Under the pieces are notes generated by a model. The model was not told where the DNA came from and did not search any database. It saw nothing but the letters and a program-made list of their open reading frames with translations. From Rhodobacterales bacterium (GTDB lineage Bacteria > Pseudomonadota > Alphaproteobacteria > Rhodobacterales > Rhodobacteraceae): DNA of 64,000 nt. Location of the stretch: contig PDRY01000012.1 in the NCBI GenBank assembly GCA_002748265.1, positions 62,001 to 126,000 of the forward strand. Reading direction: 5' to 3'. The stretch's first letter is position 1. Every line of letters starts with the position of its first letter. Below are positions 2,875 through 62,055 of the stretch, piece by piece. A program made the position numbers and the translations under genes.

Positions 2875-3654
2875 TTATACCGCGCGCTCGACCATCAGCT
2901 TCTTGATCTTGGCAATCGCCCGCGCCGGGTTCAGCCCCTTCGGGCAGGTCTTGGCGCAGTTCATGATCGTGTGGCAGCGATACAGCCGGAACGGATCTTC
3001 CAGGTAATCCAGACGCTCCGCCGTCGCCTCGTCGCGCGAATCGATGATCCAGCGATAGGCGTGCAGCAGGGCGGCAGGGCCCAGATACCGATCGCCATTC
3101 CACCAGTAGCTCGGGCACGAGGTCGAGCAGCTCGCGCACATCACGCATTCATAGAGCCCGTCGAGCTCCTTGCGGTCCTCGATGGACTGGCGCCACTCTT
3201 TCGCGGGACGGTTGGTCTTGGTCTCAAGCCACGGCATGATCGACGCGTGCTGCGCATAGAAATGCGTCAGATCCGGGATCAGATCCTTCACCACCGGCAT
3301 ATGCGGCAGCGGGTAGATCTTGATCGCGCCGTTCACCTCATCGGCGCCAAAGATGCAGGCCAGCGTGTTGATCCCGTCGATGTTCATCGCGCAGGATCCA
3401 CAGATCCCCTCGCGGCAGGACCGGCGGAAGGTCAGGGTCGGGTCGATCTCGTTCTTGATCTTGATCAGAACGTCCAGAACCATCGGCCCACAGCTGTCCA
3501 TGTCCACGAAATACGTGTCCAGGCGCGGGTTTTCGCCGCTGTCGGGATCAAAGCGATAGATCTGCACCTCGCGCAGATTGGTGGCACCTTGCGGCTTGGG
3601 CCAGGTCTTGCCCACCGTCATGCGGGAGTTCTTGGGAAGTCTCAGTTCAACCAT
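2875..3654 (-). CDS. sdhB: Succinate dehydrogenase iron-sulfur subunit
   Basis: A 259-residue subunit of respiratory complex II that carries electrons from the SdhA flavin to quinone at the inner membrane. The [2Fe-2S] ligands appear as CREGICGSC plus a later Cys (NTLACIF). The C-terminal ferredoxin domain has [11 protein letters not shown] and [14 protein letters not shown] for the [4Fe-4S] and [3Fe-4S] clusters. Length is normal for an alphaproteobacterial SdhB. It is the last gene of sdhCDAB, 12 bp after sdhA, and is followed by a strong terminator. Confidence 0.98.
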
Positions 3655-3666
3655 GGTCCAATCTCC

Positions 3667-5472
3667 TCAGAACGTCCGCGCCTTGGGCGCGATCTTCTTG
3701 AGCGCGATGCCGCCCTCGTCTTCCGTGGTCAGCGGGTCGGTGATGACCGGGCGGTAGCTCAGGTCGACAGCATTGCCCTCGACGCGGGCGATGGTGTGGA
3801 CACGCCACTTGTCGTCGTCGCGCTCCGGGTAATCCTCATGCGCGTGGGCGCCGCGGCTTTCCTGCCGCGCCTCGGCCCCGGTGATCGTGGCCAGAGCGTT
3901 GGGCATCAGGTTGGTCAGCTCCAGCGTCTCCATCAGGTCGGAGTTCCAGACCAGAGACCGGTCGGTGACCTTCAGATCGCCCAGCTTGGCGGCGATGGCG
4001 GTCATCTTCTCGACGCCCTCTTTCAGGGTCTTGTCGGTGCGGAACACGGCGGCGTCGGCCTGCATCGTCTTTTGCATCTCAAGCCGCAGCTCGGCGGTCG
4101 AGACGGCCCCATCCGCGTGGCGCAGCCCGTCGAAGCGGTCCAGAGCCTTGTCGATCTGCGCTTGCGGCGCGACCGGCACGGCGCTGTCCTTGTCCACGAC
4201 CTGACCGGCGCGGATCGCGGCGGCGCGGCCAAAGACCACAAGGTCGATCAGAGAGTTGGAGCCCAGACGGTTCGCCCCGTGCACCGAGGCACAGCCCGCC
4301 TCGCCCACGGCCATCAGGCCGGGCACGACCGCGGTCGGATCGTCTGCGGTCGGGTTCAGAACCTCGCCCCAGTAGTTGGTCGGAATGCCGCCCATGTTGT
4401 AGTGCACCGTCGGCAGAACCGGGATCGGCTCTTTGTTGACGTCGACACCGGCGAAGATCTTGGCGCTTTCGGAAATGCCCGGCAGGCGCTCGGCCAGCGT
4501 TTCCGGCGGCAGGTGGTTCAGGTGCAGGTGGATGTGATCGCCATCCTTGCCCACGCCCCGGCCCTCGCGGATCTCCATGGTCATGGAGCGGGACACGTAG
4601 TCACGCGGCGCGAGGTCTTTGTACTGGGGCGCGTAACGCTCCATGAAGCGCTCGCCTTCGGAGTTGGTGAGGTACCCACCTTCGCCGCGCGCGCCTTCGG
4701 TGATCAGGCAGCCTGCGCCGTAGATGCCGGTGGGGTGGAACTGCACGAACTCCATATCCTGAAGCGGCAGGCCCGCACGGGCCACCATGCCGCCGCCGTC
4801 ACCGGTGCAGGTATGGGCCGAGGTGGCGCTGAAATAGGCGCGGCCATAGCCGCCGGTGGCCAGCACGACCATCTTCGCGTTGAAGACATGCAGCGTGCCG
4901 TCGTCGAGCTTCCAGCAGATCACGCCGTTGCAGGCGCCGTCTTCGCCCATCAGCAGGTCGATGGCGAAATATTCGATGTAGAATTCGGCCTTCTGCTTCA
5001 GGCTCTGCCCGTAGAGCGTGTGCAGGATGGCGTGGCCGGTCCGGTCGGCGGCAGCGCAGGTGCGCTGCACTGCGGGGCCTTCCCCGAACTCGGTGGTGTG
5101 GCCGCCGAACGGGCGCTGATAGATCTTGCCCTCTTCGGTGCGCGAGAACGGCACGCCGTAATGCTCCAGCTCATAGACCGCCTTCGGGGCGGAGCGGGCC
5201 AGATATTCCATCGCATCCGTGTCGCCCAGCCAGTCCGAGCCCTTCACGGTGTCATACATGTGCCACTGCCAGTGGTCGGGGCCCATGTTCGACAGGGATG
5301 CGGCAATGCCGCCCTGCGCCGCCACGGTGTGCGAGCGGGTCGGGAACACCTTGGTCACACAAGCGGTGCGCAGACCTTGTTCGGCCATGCCCAGCGTGGC
5401 GCGCAGACCGGCACCGCCGGCACCCACAACGACCACATCATAATCATGGGTTTCGTATTCGTAAGAAGCCAT
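3667..5472 (-). CDS. sdhA: Succinate dehydrogenase flavoprotein subunit
   Basis: A 601-residue catalytic subunit that oxidises succinate to fumarate. The N-terminal FAD-binding fold has GAGGAG at about residue 18. The covalent-flavin histidine lies in [11 protein letters not shown] (His48). The catalytic region shows HPTGIYGAG and RGEGGYL, the substrate-binding arginines and HYNMGGIPT, and the C-terminal domain carries [12 protein letters not shown]. Length is typical. It sits 15 bp after sdhD in the sdhCDAB operon. Confidence 0.98.
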
Positions 5473-5487: not shown

Positions 5488-5859
5488 TCAGAGCGCGAGG
5501 CGGATGATCGAAAAGGCAGCAACGCCCATCAGGAAATAGCTCAGCAGCGTCGTGCCGATGATGGCGATACGCCCCGCCGCGCCGTGAACATAGTCCTCGA
5601 TCATGGTCTGAACCCCGCCCTTGTAATGGACGAAACCGACGATGATCGTCAGCAGCGCCACGATCGCCGGGAACGGCCGGGCGTAGACGGCGCGCGCTTC
5701 TTCATAGCTGCTGCCCAGCGTGGTGCCGAAGGAGTAGACAAAGAAGAAGATCAGGCCGATCAGTGCCACGGCGCTGACCATCATATGCCAGTGATGCATG
5801 GTGCCGGAATGGGCGGCCCCAAGGCCGGTGGCGCGTTTGCGGTCGGTAAGATAGCTCAT
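5488..5859 (-). CDS. sdhD: Succinate dehydrogenase membrane anchor subunit D
   Basis: A 123-residue hydrophobic protein with three predicted transmembrane helices (about 28-46, 62-80 and 95-118). It anchors SdhAB with SdhC and contributes to the quinone and haem b sites; His residues near helix 1 (HHWHMM) and the HYKGG segment of helix 2 fit that role. The N-terminal stretch RKRATGLGAAHSGT is typical of alphaproteobacterial SdhD. It lies between sdhC and sdhA with short gaps. Confidence 0.93.
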   Translation of the reverse strand: MSYLTDRKRATGLGAAHSGTMHHWHMMVSAVALIGLIFFFVYSFGTTLGSSYEEARAVYARPFPAIVALLTIIVGFVHYKGGVQTMIEDYVHGAAGRIAIIGTTLLSYFLMGVAAFSIIRLAL

Positions 5860-5870
5860 GGCGGCCTCCC

Positions 5871-6254
5871 TCAGACGATGACTGCGGTGAAGATGGTGAG
5901 GATCACGGCGCCGATCACCATGATATAGGCAAAGCGCTCGCTCTCGCCGACGCCCAGCATCCGGCCCGAAGCCCAGATCAGGTGCCGGATCCCGGCCAGC
6001 ATGTGGTAGTAAAGCCCGGCCAGCGACAGGAACATCACCAGATCACCAAACCAGCAGGTCAGAACCCCGTTCGCGCGGGCATAGGCTTCGGGCCCATGGG
6101 CCAGAGCGGCAAACCACCACACGATCAGGATCGCGGTGACGATCAGGGCGTTGCCGGTGATGCGGGTAAAGATCGATGTCACCGACGTCCATTGCGGGCG
6201 GTAAATCGAAAGATGCGGGCTAAGTGGGCGGTCGCCGCGATTCACATCGGCCAT
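5871..6254 (-). CDS. sdhC: Succinate dehydrogenase cytochrome b556 subunit
   Basis: A 127-residue first gene of sdhCDAB. The signature RPLSPHLSIYRP at residues 9-20 and SIFTRITG (quinone-site Ser/Arg) are diagnostic. The HMLAGIRHL segment holds the haem-ligand histidine. Three transmembrane helices are visible. The promoter region upstream contains the double palindrome at 6371-6403, 117-149 bp before the start codon, suggesting regulated expression of the whole operon. Confidence 0.96.
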   Translation of the reverse strand: MADVNRGDRPLSPHLSIYRPQWTSVTSIFTRITGNALIVTAILIVWWFAALAHGPEAYARANGVLTCWFGDLVMFLSLAGLYYHMLAGIRHLIWASGRMLGVGESERFAYIMVIGAVILTIFTAVIV

Positions 6255-6370
6255 AGTGATCCCTCCTGGCTGGGCGTTTGGCCCCTTCTAGACCCGTTTG
6301 CCGTTCGCTGTCACGCAGCGGAATGGGAAAAACCGGGGAAAGGGCGCTAACACAGGCGGGATTTTTCGTT

Positions 6371-6403
6371 TTGTGATCACGGAAAAATATCCGTGATCAC
6401 AAA
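6371..6403. promoter_or_regulatory. Double GTGATCAC palindrome upstream of sdhC
   Basis: Two perfect 8-bp palindromes GTGATCAC lie at 6373-6380 and 6393-6400, centres 20 bp apart. They are flanked outside by TT and AAA and inside by a short AT-rich linker, so the whole element is nearly palindromic. A closely similar element occurs upstream of sucC (13367-13401). Spacing of about two helical turns suggests cooperative binding of two dimers on one face of DNA. The regulator is unknown; a GntR- or CRP/FNR-type protein is plausible. Confidence 0.65.
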
Positions 6404-10400: not shown

Positions 10401-12228
<1,828 letters not shown>

Positions 12229-13366: not shown

Positions 13367-13401
13367 TTTGTGATCACACAGAATATTTGCGTGATCACAA
13401 A
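13367..13401. promoter_or_regulatory. Double GTGATCAC palindrome upstream of sucC
   Basis: Two GTGATCAC palindromes lie at 13370-13377 and 13391-13398, centres 21 bp apart, bounded by TTT and AAATG. The element ends 97 bp before the sucC start. It closely resembles the sdhC element at 6371-6403 in core, flanks, AT-rich linker and distance to the gene. It also lies 63-97 bp upstream of the divergent glycosyltransferase start. Confidence 0.65.
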
Positions 13402-13497: not shown

Positions 13498-14691
13498 ATG
13501 AACATCCATGAATACCAGGCCAAGGCCCTGCTGCGCCAGTACGGCGCGCCAGTCAGCGACGGCCGCGTGGTTTTCAAGGCCGATGAGGCCAAATCCAAAG
13601 CCGGCGAGATGGACGGCCCGCTCTGGGTCGTGAAGGCTCAGATCCATGCGGGGGGCCGCGGCGCGGGCCACTTCAAGGAAGCCGACGCGGGCGATAAAGG
13701 CGGTGTGCGCCTGGCCAAATCGGTCGAAGAGGCCGCGGAAGAAGCTCAGAAGATGCTCGGCCGCACCCTGGTGACCAAGCAGACCGGCGAAGCGGGCAAG
13801 CAGGTCAACCGTATCTACATCGAAGATGGCTCCGACATTGAGCGCGAGCTGTATCTGGCTCTGCTGATCGACCGTCAGACCAGCCGCGTGGGCTTTGTCT
13901 GCTCCACCGAAGGCGGGATGGATATTGAGACCGTCGCGGAAGAGACCCCGGACAAGATCCTGTCCTTCTCTGTCGATCCGGCCACGGGCTACCAGCCCTA
14001 TCACGGCCGCCGCATCGCGTTTATGCTGGGCCTCGAAGGCCAGCAGGTGAAGCAGTGCGTCAAGCTGATGGGCATCCTCTACAAGATGTTCGTCGAGAAA
14101 GACATGGAGATGCTGGAGATCAACCCGCTGATCGTGACCGACAGCGGCGATCTGAAATGCCTCGACGCCAAGATGGGCTTTGACGGCAACGCGATCTACC
14201 GCCAGCCCGACATCGCCGAACTGCGCGACGAGACCGAGGAAGACCCCAAGGAGCTCGAAGCCTCCAAGTATGACCTGAACTACATCGCTCTGGACGGTGA
14301 GATCGGCTGCATGGTGAACGGCGCGGGTCTAGCCATGGCGACCATGGACATCATCAAGCTCTACGGCGCGGAGCCTGCCAACTTCCTCGATGTGGGCGGC
14401 GGCGCGACCAAAGAGAAAGTGACCGAAGCCTTCAAGATCATCACCTCGGACCCGAACGTGAAGGGCATCCTGGTGAACATCTTCGGCGGCATCATGCGTT
14501 GCGACATCATCGCGGAAGGCGTCATCGCCGCCGTGAAAGAAATGGGCCTGAAAGTGCCGCTGGTCGTGCGGCTGGAAGGCACCAATGTCGAGCAGGGCAA
14601 GGAGATTATCAACACCTCCGGCCTAGACGTGATCGCGGCGGACAACCTGTCCGACGGCGCCGAGAAGATCGTGAAAGCGGTGAAGGGGTAA
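13498..14691 (+). CDS. sucC: Succinyl-CoA synthetase (ADP-forming) beta subunit
   Basis: A 397-residue ATP-grasp subunit that, with SucD, makes ATP (or GTP) from succinyl-CoA. [19 protein letters not shown] is the canonical start. [17 protein letters not shown] is the nucleotide-binding loop, LEINPLIV the ATP-grasp metal site, and [10 protein letters not shown] the subunit-interface loop. AAGGGG lies upstream of the start. The stop codon is five bases before sucD. Confidence 0.98.
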
Positions 14692-14696
14692 GCACA

Positions 14697-15578
14697 ATGG
14701 CCATTCTCGTAGATGAAAACACCAAAGTGATCTGTCAGGGCTTCACCGGCTCTCAGGGCACGTTCCACTCCGAACAGGCAATCGCCTACGGCACCAAGAT
14801 GGTTGGCGGCGTGACCCCCGGCAAAGGCGGGATGGATCACCTGGGCCTGCCGGTCTTCAACTCCGTGCACGAAGCCAAGGCCGTGACCGAGGCCAACGCC
14901 TCCGTGATCTACGTCCCGCCCCCCTTCGCGGCGGACTCGATCCTCGAAGCCATCGACGCCGAGATGGAGCTGATCGTCTGCATCACCGAAGGCATCCCGG
15001 TGCTGGACATGATGAAGGTCAAGCGCGCTCTGGAAGGCTCTTCCTCCCGTCTGATCGGGCCGAACTGCCCCGGTGTCATCACCCCTGACGCCTGCAAGAT
15101 CGGCATCATGCCGGGCCACATCCACAAGCGCGGCTCCGTCGGCGTTGTGTCCCGTTCCGGCACCCTGACCTATGAGGCCGTCAAGCAGACCGCCGATATC
15201 GGTCTGGGCCAGTCCACCGCTGTCGGCATCGGCGGCGACCCGATCAAAGGGACCGAGCATATCGACGTGCTCGACATGTTCCTGGACGACGATGAGACCC
15301 AGTCCATCATCATGATCGGTGAAATCGGCGGCACCGCCGAAGAGGAGGCCGCCGAGTTCCTCGCCGAGCAGAAGAAGAAAGGCCGCTGGAAGCCCGTCGC
15401 TGGCTTCATCGCAGGCCGCACGGCGCCTCCGGGCCGCCGGATGGGTCACGCAGGTGCCATCGTCGCAGGCGGCAAGGGCGATGCGGAGAGCAAGATCGAG
15501 GCGATGAAATCCGCCGGGATCGTGGTCGCCGACAGCCCCGCCACCCTGGGCGAAGCGGTCGTCAAGGCGATCGGTTAA
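14697..15578 (+). CDS. sucD: Succinyl-CoA synthetase alpha subunit
   Basis: A 293-residue CoA-binding subunit. The N-terminal Rossmann-type CoA domain has [16 protein letters not shown] and [16 protein letters not shown] lies mid-protein, and the phosphorylated active-site histidine is in RMGHAGAIV near residue 249. The start was placed at the ATG at 14697, five bases past the sucC stop; AGGGG in the sucC end serves as ribosome site. Length is normal. Confidence 0.98.
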
Positions 15579-15619: not shown

Positions 15620-16198
15620 ATGCTGCAATGGCTCTTGGATATCACAACATGTCGCGGTCCGATGCCGCGTTTGCGCTTTTGGGGCAGAATCGCGCCTCTG
15701 GCCCTTGTCGTGATCGCCGGGGCCGTTTGCGTGTCGCAGATCTGGGGACCGCTCAGGCTTTCCACCGGGTCAGGCACACTTACCTATCTCTGGGCCCCGC
15801 AGCTTTTCATGCTGCTGGCCCTGCCGCTGATGTGGGGTCGGCTGGCGGATGCCGGGCTATCCCGCTGGATCAGCATCGCTCTGCTCGGTGCGCTGACGCT
15901 GGTGCCAAGCGCAATGTGGCTCCACGGCGCCGCCGAGGCGCAAAGATTTGGAAGCGCGACACAGGGCTTGATCGACGGAGTGGGCAGCGAACCGGCGGGG
16001 CTTCCAGCCGTCGTGGCCCTGGCGCCTGTCACGGCAACGGTCGACGTTATTTCGGCCTTCAGCGCAAGCTTATTTGTCATCTTGATCTGGATGGCCGTTG
16101 GGCTCGCCTTAACTCTGATATTATTCGTGCTGTTGCTGTTACCAACGGCCCCCCGTCCACCCAGCCCAAGGGCTGACAACGTAAGAGGTTCGGTATGA
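15620..16198 (+). CDS. DUF805-like integral membrane protein between sucD and sucA
   Basis: A 192-residue hydrophobic protein with about four or five transmembrane segments. PRLRFWGRIAPLAL near the N terminus and GRLADAGLSRWISIALLG resemble the DUF805 pattern (an arginine-rich start and an RLxDxGxSxW turn), though the match is loose. The start is uncertain: the ATG at 15620 lies just after the sucD hairpin with a weak ribosome site, and another ATG lies at 15662. Its stop overlaps the sucA start codon (ATGA), so it is coupled to sucA. Function unknown. Confidence 0.65.
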   Translation: MLQWLLDITTCRGPMPRLRFWGRIAPLALVVIAGAVCVSQIWGPLRLSTGSGTLTYLWAPQLFMLLALPLMWGRLADAGLSRWISIALLGALTLVPSAMWLHGAAEAQRFGSATQGLIDGVGSEPAGLPAVVALAPVTATVDVISAFSASLFVILIWMAVGLALTLILFVLLLLPTAPRPPSPRADNVRGSV

Positions 16199-19152
16199 AA
16201 GACCAGCCCAGCAACGACGACCTTCACGGCACGTCCTTCCTGCAAGGACATAACGCCGAATATGTCGAACAGCTTTATGCCCGCTACGCGGACAACCCTT
16301 CGGCAGTGGATGAAAGCTGGCAAGCGTTTTTCAAGTCTTTGGGCGATCCGACCGGCGATGCCAAAGCCGAAGCGGCAGGCCCGAGCTGGGGCCGGGGCGA
16401 CTGGCCTCCGGTGCCGCAGGACGATCTGACCGCCGCCCTGGACGGCCAGTGGCCCGCCGACCCGAAAGAGGCCAAGGCAGCCGCAGCGAAGATCACCGAG
16501 AAGGCCGCGGAAAAGGGCGTCGAGCTGACGGCTGAGCAGACCCGCGCTGCCGTTCTGGACAGTATCCGCGCGCTGATGATCATCCGCGCCTACCGGATTC
16601 GCGGGCACCTTGTGGCCGATCTGGACCCGCTGGGCATGCGCGATCAGACCCCGCACCCAGAGCTGGAGCCCGCCTCCTATGGCTTCACCGAAGCCGACAT
16701 GGATCGCCCGATCTTCATCGACAATGTGCTCGGTCTCGAAATCGCCACCATGCGCGAGATCATGGCCATCGTCCGCCGCACCTATTGCGGCACGTTTGCC
16801 CTGCAATACATGCACATCTCCAACCCCGAAGAAGCGGGCTGGCTGAAGGAGCGCATCGAAGGTCTGGGCAAGGAAATCCAGTTCACGGATATGGGCCGCA
16901 AGGCGATCCTGAACAAAATGGTCGAAGCGGAGGGCTTTGAGAAATTCCTCCATGTCAAATACATGGGCACCAAGCGGTTCGGCCTGGATGGCGGCGAAAG
17001 CCTCATCCCCGCGATGGAGCAGATCATCAAACGCGGCGGCGCGCTTGGCATCGAAGAGATTGTCGTCGGCATGCCTCACCGGGGCCGCCTGTCGGTTCTG
17101 GCCAACGTGATGGGCAAGCCCTACCGCGCGATCTTCAACGAATTCCAGGGCGGCAGCTTCAAGCCCGAAGACGTGGACGGCTCGGGCGATGTGAAATACC
17201 ACCTCGGCGCCTCCTCCGACCGCGAATTCGACGGCAACAAGGTCCACTTGTCGCTCACCGCGAACCCCTCGCACCTTGAGGCGGTGAACCCCGTCGTTCT
17301 GGGCAAGGCCCGCGCCAAGCAGGACCAGCTGCACGACGCGGAACGCACCAAAGTATTGCCGATCCTGCTGCACGGCGATGCCGCCTTTGCAGGTCAGGGT
17401 GTCGTGGCCGAGTGCCTTCAGCTCTCGGGCATCCGCGGGCACCGCACCGGCGGCTGCATCCATATCGTTGTGAACAACCAGATCGGCTTCACGACCGCCC
17501 CGCATTTCAGCCGCACCTCGCCCTATCCGACGGACATCGCGCTGATGGTGGAGGCTCCGATCTTCCACGTGAACGGCGACGATCCAGAAGCCGTGGTCCA
17601 CGCGGCCAAGGTCGCGACGGAGTTCCGTCAGAAGTTCCACAAGGACGTCGTCATCGACATGTTCTGCTATCGCCGCTTCGGTCACAACGAAGGCGATGAG
17701 CCGATGTTCACCAACCCGGTGATGTACAAGAAGATCAAAGGTCAGAAGACGACCCTGTCACTCTATACTGATCGCCTGATCAAGGACGGCCTGATCCCCG
17801 AAGGTGAAATCGAGGACATGAAAGCCGCTTTCCAGGCCCACCTGAACGAAGAGTTCGAGGCCGGCAAGGAATACCGCCCCAACAAGGCGGACTGGCTCGA
17901 CGGTCGCTGGGCGCACCTGGAGAAGAACGACAAGTATCAGCGCGGCAAGACCGCCATCAGCGATGAGACCATGGCCCAGATCGGCCGGTCTCTGACCCAG
18001 GCACCAGCCGATCACACGCTGCACAAGACGGTGACGCGGCTTCTCGACGCCAAGAAAGAGATGTTCGACACCGGCCAGGGCTTTGACTGGGCCACGGCCG
18101 AGGCGCTCGCCTTTGGATCATTGCTGACGGAAGGCTACCCGGTGCGTCTGGCCGGTCAGGACAGCACGCGCGGGACGTTCTCGCAGCGCCATTCCGGTCT
18201 GGTCGATCAGAAATCCGAAGAGCGGTACTACCCGCTCAACCACATCCGCGACGGGCAGGCACGCTATGAGGTGCACGATTCGATGCTCTCCGAATATGCG
18301 GTGCTGGGCTTTGAATACGGCTACTCGCTGGCGGAGCCGAACGCGCTGACCATGTGGGAAGCGCAGTTTGGCGATTTCGCCAACGGCGCGCAGATCATGT
18401 TCGACCAGTTCATCAGTTCGGGCGAAAGCAAGTGGCTGCGCATGTCCGGCCTTGTCTGCCTTCTGCCCCACGGCTTCGAAGGCCAGGGGCCGGAGCACTC
18501 CTCCGCCCGTCTGGAGCGGTTCTTGCAGATGTGCGGCCAGGACAACTGGATCGTAGCGAACTGTTCGACCCCGGCGAACTACTTCCACATCCTGCGTCGG
18601 CAGCTCCACCGTAGCTACCGCAAGCCGCTGATCCTGATGACGCCGAAATCTCTGCTGCGGCACAAATCGGCCGTGTCGAGCGCCGATGAGTTCCTCAGCG
18701 GATCGTCCTTCCACCGCGTGCTGGAAGACGACGCGGAACGGGGCAAGTCGGACACCAAGCTGGTTGCTGACAGCAAGATCAAGCGCGTCGTGATGTGTTC
18801 GGGCAAGGTCTATTACGACCTTCTGGCCGAACGCGACGCGCGCGGCCTCACCGATGTCTATCTGCTGCGCCTTGAGCAGTTCTATCCGTTCCCGGCGCAA
18901 TCCATGGTGAAGGAGCTGGAACGCTTCAAGCAGGCCGAGATCGTCTGGTGCCAGGAAGAGCCCAAGAACCAGGGCGCCTGGTTCTTTGTCGAGCCGAACA
19001 TCGAATGGGTGCTGGGCCGGATCAAGGCCAAGCATGGCCGCCCAACCTATGCCGGTCGCCCGGCCTCTGCCTCGCCGGCCACGGGTCTGGCGAGCGCCCA
19101 CAAGCAACAACAGGAAGAGCTGGTTAACGACGCTCTGACGATCAAGGAGTAA
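16195..19152 (+). CDS. sucA: 2-oxoglutarate dehydrogenase E1 component
   Basis: A 985-residue thiamine-diphosphate enzyme that decarboxylates 2-oxoglutarate and passes the succinyl group to SucB. The N terminus has the E1o-specific segment [14 protein letters not shown], used for E2 binding. Catalytic motifs include [14 protein letters not shown] near residue 290, [15 protein letters not shown], and the ThDP/Mg region NNQIGFTT. The C-terminal transketolase half carries RGTFSQRH and [10 protein letters not shown]. It overlaps the upstream membrane-protein gene by four bases and is followed by sucB after 5 bp. Confidence 0.97.
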
Positions 19153-19157
19153 CCCAG

Positions 19158-20627
19158 ATGACCGAAGTACGTGTGCCCACGCTGGGCGAATCCGTGACCG
19201 AAGCCACCGTCGCCACCTGGTTCAAGAAGGTGGGCGATCAGGTCGCAGCCGATGAGATGCTCTGCGAGCTGGAGACCGACAAAGTCACCGTCGAAGTGCC
19301 CTCCCCCGCGAGCGGCACCCTGACCGAGATCGTCGCCAAGGAAGGCGACACGGTTGGCGTCGATGCGCTTCTGGCGCAGCTGGGCGAGGCCGGAGATCAG
19401 CCCGCACCGAAGGCCGCCGTGAAAACCGAAGCCGCGCCTGCGGGCGGCGACCTGATGGACGTGATGGTCCCCACCCTGGGCGAAAGCGTCACCGAAGCCA
19501 CCGTGGCGAGCTGGTTCAAGCAGCCCGGCGAAGCCTTCGCAGCCGATGAAATCCTGTGCGAGCTGGAAACCGACAAGGTCTCCGTCGAAGTGCCCGCCCC
19601 CGCTGCCGGCACCCTGACCGAGATCATCGCCAAAGACGGCGAAACCGTTCAGGCGGGCGGTAAGCTGGCCGTGATGACGACCGGCGCGGGCGCGGCACAG
19701 GCCGCATCTGCGCCTGCCCCGCAGGCCACCACCGCCCCAACCGCACAAGGCGGCAAGGACGTGGAAGACGCCCCTTCTGCCAAAAAGCTGATGGCCGAAA
19801 AGGGCCTGTCGCGCGATGACGTGCAGGGCTCGGGCCGCGATGGCCGGATCATGAAGGAAGACGTACAAAACGCCTCCGCCAAAGCCGCCGCGCCCGCCCC
19901 GGCCCCGGCAGCCCCGCGCGAAACGGGCCCGCGCGAAGAGCGCGTGCGCATGACGCGTCTGCGCCAGACCATCGCCCGCCGCCTGAAAGAGGCGCAGAAC
20001 ACCGCCGCGATGCTAACCACCTACAATGAAGTGGACATGACCGGCGTCATGGAGATCCGCAATGAATACAAGGATCTGTTCCTCAAGAAGCACGGTGTGA
20101 AACTGGGCTTCATGTCCTTCTTCGTCAAAGCCTGCTGCCACGCGCTCAACGAAGTGCCGGACGTGAACGCCGAAATCGACGGCACCGACGTGGTCTACAA
20201 GAACTACGTCAACATGGGCGTCGCCGTGGGCACCCCCACTGGTCTGGTCGTGCCGGTGGTTCGCGATGCGCAGGACAAGAGCTTCGCCACCATCGAAAAA
20301 GAGATCGCCGAGCTCGGCACCCGCGCCCGCGATGGCAAGCTCTCCATGGATGACATGCAGGGCGGCTCCTTCACCATCTCCAATGGTGGTGTCTATGGCT
20401 CCCTGATGTCCTCCCCGATCCTGAACCCTCCGCAGTCCGGCATCCTCGGCATGCACAAGATCCAGGAGCGCCCCATGGCCATCGGAGGCCAGGTGGTGAT
20501 CCGCCCGATGATGTATCTGGCGCTGTCCTATGACCACCGGATCGTCGACGGCAAAGGCGCGGTGACCTTCCTGGTGCGCGTGAAAGAGGCTCTGGAGGAC
20601 CCGCGGCGTCTGCTGATGGATCTGTAA
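19158..20627 (+). CDS. sucB: 2-oxoglutarate dehydrogenase E2 (dihydrolipoyl succinyltransferase)
   Basis: A 489-residue E2 core subunit. Unlike the roughly 400-residue enteric form it has two lipoyl domains, with lipoyl-lysine motifs ETDKVTVEV (Lys42) and ETDKVSVEV (Lys140), joined by Ala/Pro-rich linkers. The E3-binding domain has [17 protein letters not shown] and [13 protein letters not shown]. The catalytic domain ends with the active-site region [16 protein letters not shown]. Tandem lipoyl domains are seen in some alphaproteobacteria. The usual partner lpdA does not follow directly; a MAPEG-type gene comes next. Confidence 0.97.
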
Positions 20628-61707: not shown

Positions 61708-62055
61708 TCAGTCTTCCTCGTCCTCGTCCGCCTTGGGCGGCATGTCCTGCCCGATATCGGGCCCGTGTATCTGCTGCACCTCTTGCGCGGTGCGCATCAA
61801 GGTCTTCACTCCGGCCGCGAGGCCCAGGAAAATGAAAACCACCATCAAAAACGGCTTGGTGCCAAACAAGGCATCCAGCCCAAAACCGATGGCGAACCCG
61901 ATCCCGAGCCCGGCCACCAGCTCGACCACCATGCGCCAGGCGATCTGCGCCTGGGAATAGTGCTCTTCGGAGTGGTGCTTTTGCGCCTCCGGCCCTTTCG
62001 CCGCGGCGATCCGCTCTTCCAGAGCTTTGAGCCGCTCGGCATCCGTTTCGGGCAT
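61708..62055 (-). CDS. atpI: ATP synthase protein I
   Basis: A 115-residue assembly factor for the c-ring. [14 protein letters not shown] is the N-terminal helix, [24 protein letters not shown] the first membrane segment, and [20 protein letters not shown] the second. The acidic tail (DEDEED) is common. The ATG at 62055 is used; a GTG eight codons upstream is possible. First gene of atpI-B-E-X-F. Confidence 0.92.

Follow-up and report, generated by a model that had tools for sequence, protein, structure and literature searches.

Paired candidate AkgR operators upstream of sdhCDAB and sucCD-sucAB in a Rhodobacterales bacterium

The closest described systems concern two regulators of Rhodobacter sphaeroides, AkgR and CceR, which we take to be the GntR protein RSP_0981 and the LacI regulator RSP_1663, respectively. 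As set out in the available portion of PMC4344238, RSP_0981 is predicted to target RSP_0967-6 (succinyl-CoA synthetase, sucCD) and RSP_0974-6 (succinate dehydrogenase, sdh), and is also predicted to regulate RSP_0965-62 (2-oxoglutarate dehydrogenase, sucAB-lpd); for RSP_1663, the predicted motif is [A/G/T]GTT-N6-8-AAC. A second source, again in the portion available, gives GTGATCAC as a motif among AkgR binding sites and calls AkgR a transcriptional activator, citing Imam 2015 (PMC6365646). Because the AkgR motif and the predicted R. sphaeroides targets have been reported in print, the regulator, its motif and its targets are already known for that species, and no new class of regulation is presented here.

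Here, we compare with these systems a window of 64,000 nucleotides from a Rhodobacterales bacterium (positions 62,001 to 126,000 of contig PDRY01000012.1, assembly GCA_002748265.1), in which a preliminary description had pointed to a palindromic element common to two TCA-cycle operons. We consider it very likely that each of the two elements discussed below is an AkgR operator pair, and that the two activate sdhCDAB and sucCD-sucAB together.

Paired palindromic elements upstream of two TCA-cycle operons

The sdhCDAB operon is found on the minus strand, where sdhC (5871..6254; Pfam Sdh_cyt PF01127) is followed by sdhD (5488..5859; Sdh_cyt), sdhA (3667..5472; FAD_binding_2 and Succ_DH_flav_C) and sdhB (2875..3654; Fer2_3 and Fer4 models). 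On the plus strand, sucC, encoding the beta subunit of succinyl-CoA synthetase (13498..14691; Pfam ATP-grasp_2 and Ligase_CoA), precedes sucD (Pfam CoA_binding, Ligase_CoA and Succ_CoA_lig), whose longest open frame spans 14499..15578 and whose true start is probably inside that frame, downstream of sucC. The same strand continues after sucCD with sucA, the E1 component of 2-oxoglutarate dehydrogenase (16195..19152; Pfam 2-oxogl_dehyd_N, E1_dh and OxoGdeHyase_C), and sucB, a dihydrolipoyl acyltransferase (19158..20627; Pfam 2-oxoacid_dh). The frame at 11113-12228 is assigned by Pfam to mdh.

A scan of the window places exact GTGATCAC cores at 6373-6380 and 6393-6400, with starts 20 bp apart and a gap of N12, and at 13370-13377 and 13391-13398, 21 bp apart with a gap of N13. 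We draw the candidate paired operator upstream of sdhC as TTTGTGATCAC-N12-GTGATCACAAA (6370..6403, minus strand, core centres 6376.5 and 6396.5), and that upstream of sucC as TTTGTGATCAC-N13-GTGATCACAAA (13367..13401, plus strand, core centres 13373.5 and 13394.5). The sdhC element, 34 bp in length, is self-complementary at 30/34 positions, with 14-bp perfect arms flanking AAAATA, and 118 bp separate its end from the start codon of sdhC. For the sucC element (13367-13401), self-complementarity extends to 28/35 positions, and the distance from its end to sucC is 99 bp. These measurements agree with the preliminary description in its two perfect cores 20 bp apart upstream of sdhC (starts 6373 and 6393) and in its similar element upstream of sucC, which has the same TTTGTGATCAC and GTGATCACAAA halves at N13, and adjust it in two details: the near-palindrome, given there as 33 bp, is better drawn as 34 bp (6370-6403), and the element, correctly placed upstream, stands 118 bp rather than 117 bp from sdhC.

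The pattern TGTGATCAC-N8-14-GTGATCACA occurs twice in the window, compared to 0.00 expected from 100 shuffles, and the extended half TTTGTGATCAC four times, compared to 0.01 expected on shuffling. In the whole assembly (2.79 Mb, 56 contigs, 88% complete), TTTGTGATCAC is likewise present in four copies, every one within the sdhC and sucC elements, and the double core occurs twice, as these same two elements, whether the gap is searched over N10-15 or over N2-32. Random positions genome-wide, which the preliminary description had named as the outcome that would count against it, are thus not what is seen, as both double cores lie upstream of TCA operons. Single GTGATCAC words with at most one mismatch are frequent (53 in the window, with 26 expected), and so a lone core means little and the pair is the informative part. 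The statement that the element stands nowhere else in the window is correct for the double element but not for the single core, which recurs at 859-866, within open reading frames of both strands, probably by chance.

The composition of the cores also bears on a CRP/FNR-type regulator as the protein that binds them. The CRP consensus is TGTGA-N6-TCACA, and both TGTGA and TCACA can be read in the cores, but TGTGA and TCAC abut within each core, and 12-13 bases separate one core from the other, such that the CRP spacing is found neither within nor between cores. We regard this assignment as highly improbable.

Conservation of the pair and its likely regulator

Across 248 genomes representing an even draw from the family Rhodobacteraceae, the exact double core (N9-16) was found in 221, mostly twice per genome, and the reversed-pattern control in 0/248; not all pairs in this count need be TCA sites, as the only pair of one genome (G061, N14) is not upstream of sdhC, sucC or sucA. 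When gaps of N2-32 were searched in 71 genomes, the matches listed comprised at least 75 double cores in 36 genomes, 60 with N13 and four with N12, the remaining 11 among those listed being scattered over eight gap lengths. The loci fetched, which take in every off-spacing pair among the matches listed from the 71-genome scan, provided 152 distinct double cores (N2-32) whose placement relative to genes was then determined. Here, 136/139 pairs with N12-13 precede sdhC (58), sucC (77, taking one triple array twice) or sucA (1), compared to 0/13 pairs with other gaps, indicating that spacing and target go together. In each of 20 loci of 20 kb, picked for having both pairs close together on one contig, pairs stand upstream of sdhC and upstream of sucC (in one locus, L094, sucA). 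Absence of the pair upstream of sdhC in relatives, the other outcome that had been named as adverse, was therefore not observed, the pairs being kept upstream of both sdhC and sucC. In a class-level sample of 289 genomes, the N12-13 pair was present in all four family members and in 2/285 others (loci L238 and L239), and the reversed control gave five matches, all in one genome (G320).

The three N12-13 pairs in other positions (3/139) are those of loci L238, L035 and L239, of which the latter two may be chance occurrences. The L035 pair (1501-1529 of the locus, G042:C16:228293-228321) is the third N13 pair of its genome and is not upstream of sdhC, sucC or sucA. The triple array mentioned above, from Pseudotabrizicola sediminis (L227, 19912-19961), has three GTGATCAC cores upstream of sucC, with successive cores 21 bp apart. 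A search around 129 pairs for an additional degenerate core at equal spacing gave no excess at N12-13 (2 + 4 matches, as at other offsets).

The 27 genomes that lack the exact double core are not uniformly devoid of similar sequences, as 24 of them have N13 matches with up to two mismatches (0-11 each across the 27), which reflects how common GTGATCAC-like words are. In G040, one of these genomes, a pair with one mismatch lies 108 bp upstream of sucC and another 144 bp upstream of sdhC, and G155 also has two 1-mismatch pairs.

The GntR helix-turn-helix model has 11 matches in the genome of interest, 10 of them above the cut-off. One GntR protein is common to four genomes that retain the site and are small or have a single pair, namely the ortholog of L013. 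L013 is encoded outside the window, at C2:67471-68112 of the genome of interest, and has GntR and FCD domains; in sequence, the closest protein of solved structure is McbR (4p9f, E 2.5e-20). An L013 ortholog (E <= 1e-50) is present in 224/248 family genomes, and its distribution follows that of the double core closely, with 218/221 genomes having the double core compared to 6/27 genomes lacking it (Fisher 3.5e-22). The better matches in other genera are 66-81% identical, whereas among the 285 class-sample genomes outside the family, 24 have a matching protein, with identities of just 29-41%. The genomes with a double core but without a strong L013 ortholog are G019, G096 and G114. Those with the ortholog but without an exact double core are G040, G122, G147, G155, G166 and G201, of which G040 is no true exception, given its two 1-mismatch pairs; completeness is 71-76% for G122, G147 and G166, and 92% for G155. 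The exception that stays unexplained is G201, which is 97% complete and has the ortholog, yet shows only scattered 2-mismatch pairs.

The two are also linked in part of the family. The gene for the L013 ortholog is within 20 kb of the double core in 16/48 genomes for which both positions were listed, at 5-18 kb, in agreement with the numbering of the R. sphaeroides genes RSP_0974-6 (sdh) and RSP_0981 (the regulator); in the other 32/48, it is either more than 50 kb distant or carried by a different contig. No GntR gene adjoins sdh or suc in the 20 loci of 20 kb described above (L080-L099).

We also considered other GntR-FCD proteins as candidates for binding the elements, above all the PdhR/LldR-like L007 (C1:183440-184207). 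PdhR controls sdhCDAB in Shewanellaceae, as stated in the available part of PMC5343134, and L007 has matches (E <= 1e-20) in 197/248 family genomes, in 187/221 of those with the double core compared to 10/27 of those without (Fisher 3e-7). This correlation is, however, weaker than that of L013, and 34/221 double-core genomes have no L007 match, for which reason L007, taken as a first candidate for the regulator, was set aside. Five of these genomes, G018, G042, G050, G062 and G077, have an L013 ortholog in the absence of an L007 match, and GntR matches number only two in G033 and three in G090, both small genomes, one match in each being the L013 ortholog, some 8 kb from the double core. Binding by L007 or a similar protein is hence quite unlikely in our estimation. 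As a separate observation, the L007 locus has, upstream of the PdhR-like GntR gene, a lone GTGATCAC (581-588, G000:C1) located about 105 bp ahead of a frame that by eye resembles a lipoprotein of the OmpA type.

Taking these distributions into account, we conclude that the elements are very probably AkgR binding sites, kept in paired form by much of the family, and that the L013 ortholog is likely AkgR itself, based on co-occurrence, linkage and the target list in print. The suggestion that two TCA operons answer to one common regulator is supported, the pair and the GntR ortholog being co-inherited, and, of the two candidates that had been put forward, AkgR is favored, since GTGATCAC is its reported motif, and CceR, whose motif differs, is not. 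We note also that FCD domains frequently have a third metal-binding histidine. In L013 and its G090 and G033 relatives, an aspartate appears to occupy the place of this histidine in the C-terminal part of the FCD domain (by eye, from unaligned sequences), and this may bear on the ligand.

Promoter placement and proposed mode of action

In the window, a -35-like hexamer, GTGACA, is found at 6309..6314 on the minus strand, 58 bp from the sdhC operator, and is followed after 16 bp by a weak -10-like sequence, TCTAGA, at 6287..6292 on the same strand. The GTGAC portion recurs in the promoters of relatives, as it is present downstream of the pair in 48/56 sdhC promoters, with 49 occurrences at distances of 48 (2), 57-60 (40), 69 (1), 78-80 (4), 86 (1) and 214 bp (1). 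When 47 promoters are aligned on GTGAC, T (41/47) and A (39/47) are conserved 22 and 23 bp further, as in a -35/-10 arrangement. The window retains only the T of this conserved TA, and a consensus scan found no sigma-70 promoter in either window region (sdhC or sucC), for which reasons the -10-like assignment is weak. At the sucC promoters, the conserved base at the positions 47 and 48 bp beyond the pair is T (54/70 and 53/70, respectively).

The clustering of these distances hints at a helical phasing between the -35-like GTGAC and the pair, which we do not consider established, because the genomes are related, the period is poorly resolved (R of 0.81 at 10.0, 0.82 at 10.5 and 0.75 at 15.5), and, on a stricter count, 7/9 off-cluster GTGAC positions fall in phase within 2 bp, with P = 0.07.

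The LacI-type regulator CceR was considered as well, RSP_1663 being a predicted regulator of the R. sphaeroides sdh operon (PMC4344238, available portion). Halves of the form GTTAnCG/CGnTAAC are somewhat enriched between the pair and sdhC, in 13/56 promoters (shuffled mean 3.0, maximum 9), and possibly form the site of a second regulator, such as CceR. The motif in that same partial account, [A/G/T]GTT-N6-8-AAC, is nevertheless not matched by the cores, which read GTGATCAC, and GTT-N6-8-AAC between the pair and sdhC shows no enrichment (4/56, shuffled mean 3.7). That CceR binds the elements themselves thus seems to us scarcely credible; a CceR site may instead stand beside the pair, not within it.

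The position of the pair relative to the promoter bears on the sign of regulation. It is conceivable that AkgR binds the elements, but that the pair assembles a repressor complex or anchors a DNA loop rather than forming an activating array. GntR-type proteins are often repressors. In addition, for other GntR-family regulators, constantly spaced double sites have been interpreted as units of cooperative action (PMC4494728, in the part available). In 47/48 of the sdhC promoters that have a -35-like element, however, the pair is 48-80 bp upstream of this element and not over it, and AkgR is named a transcriptional activator (PMC6365646, as excerpted). With the pair upstream of a likely promoter, the placement is that of an activator and not of a blocking repressor, and we judge the repressor or loop reading to be unlikely.

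Returning to AkgR as an activator, we propose that one AkgR dimer would bind each GTGATCAC core and thus two dimers each element, a stoichiometry suggested by the symmetry and spacing of the sites. Core centres 20 or 21 bp apart correspond to two turns of B-DNA, so that the dimers would be positioned side by side on the same face, where they would probably bind cooperatively. Bound upstream of a sigma-70-like promoter, the pair would activate transcription, and AkgR, in response to a ligand that signals demand, would raise sdhCDAB and sucCD-sucAB jointly, covering the part of the cycle that converts 2-oxoglutarate into fumarate.

A further core is found upstream of akgR itself in most relatives examined. 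Exact GTGATCAC is present 17-62 bp upstream of the matched L013-ortholog start in 66/80 relatives (the closest 80 of 474 confirmed loci), compared to 0.8 expected from the word frequency in the same loci, and occupies a position at which a bound protein could obstruct the initiation of transcription or translation. The regulator copy of the window genome has no exact core, its best match, TTGATCGC, having two mismatches, and 14/80 relatives likewise lack one. Where present, this single core would allow AkgR to limit its own synthesis, and such self-control in relatives is probable. We infer from sequence that AkgR binds in the Rhodobacterales host, as two dimers, cooperatively and with an activating sign, and that it represses its own gene.

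A more specific model, which we offer tentatively and hold to be somewhat less probable than its converse, is that AkgR acts as a dimer-of-dimers activator needing a rigid, two-turn, same-face pair, possibly phased with the -35 element (at 48, 57-60, 69 and 78-80 bp), that its regulon has here shrunk to two lower-TCA operons, and that a single self-limiting core operates in most relatives. The comparison of two sites exactly two turns apart for activation with one site at the regulator's own gene makes this mechanism testable, and the pair provides a clean cis-element from which TCA control can be read from sequence in many Rhodobacteraceae, including marine roseobacters.

Comparison with described regulators

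Double operators of FadR- and HutC-type GntR regulators resemble the present elements in consisting of two palindromes at near-constant spacing that are taken to form one cooperative unit, but lie in divergons, unlike the window elements, and GT and AC are usually 2-3 bases apart in a FadR-subfamily site, compared to four in the window cores (PMC4494728, in the part available). The GntR-like PS417_07240 of Pseudomonas simiae, involved in deoxyribonate use, shares the motif, having GTGATCAC upstream of its own gene at -47 to -40; it is 32% identical to AkgR, belongs to a different pathway, and is described, in the available text, with a single core (PMC6365646).

A closer arrangement is seen in L238 (992-1020), from a genome of another alphaproteobacterial family (G393), where an N13 double core adjoins a GntR-FCD gene whose product is 28% identical to the AkgR ortholog. 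This pair differs in that it has a TonB-receptor gene on one side and the regulator gene on the other, and does not precede TCA genes. The GTGATCAC motif seems to accompany GntR proteins of this subfamily. The regulator gene at L238 is followed by an open frame that, by eye, resembles a short-chain dehydrogenase.

The paired arrangement was not found described in the literature searched on AkgR, CceR, RSP_0981 and GTGATCAC, as far as the available portions of those sources extend. AkgR of R. sphaeroides is the nearest counterpart, with the same operons, the same palindrome GTGATCAC and a GntR-type regulator, and differs in that its palindrome is described, in the text available, but not as pairs 21 bp apart. 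The window genome departs from it also in having the exact extended half at two operons only and in lacking the akgR core. Set against this system, what may be new is the placement of cores two helical turns apart, the limitation of the regulon to two operons in the present genome, and the control that AkgR probably exerts on its own gene via a single core.
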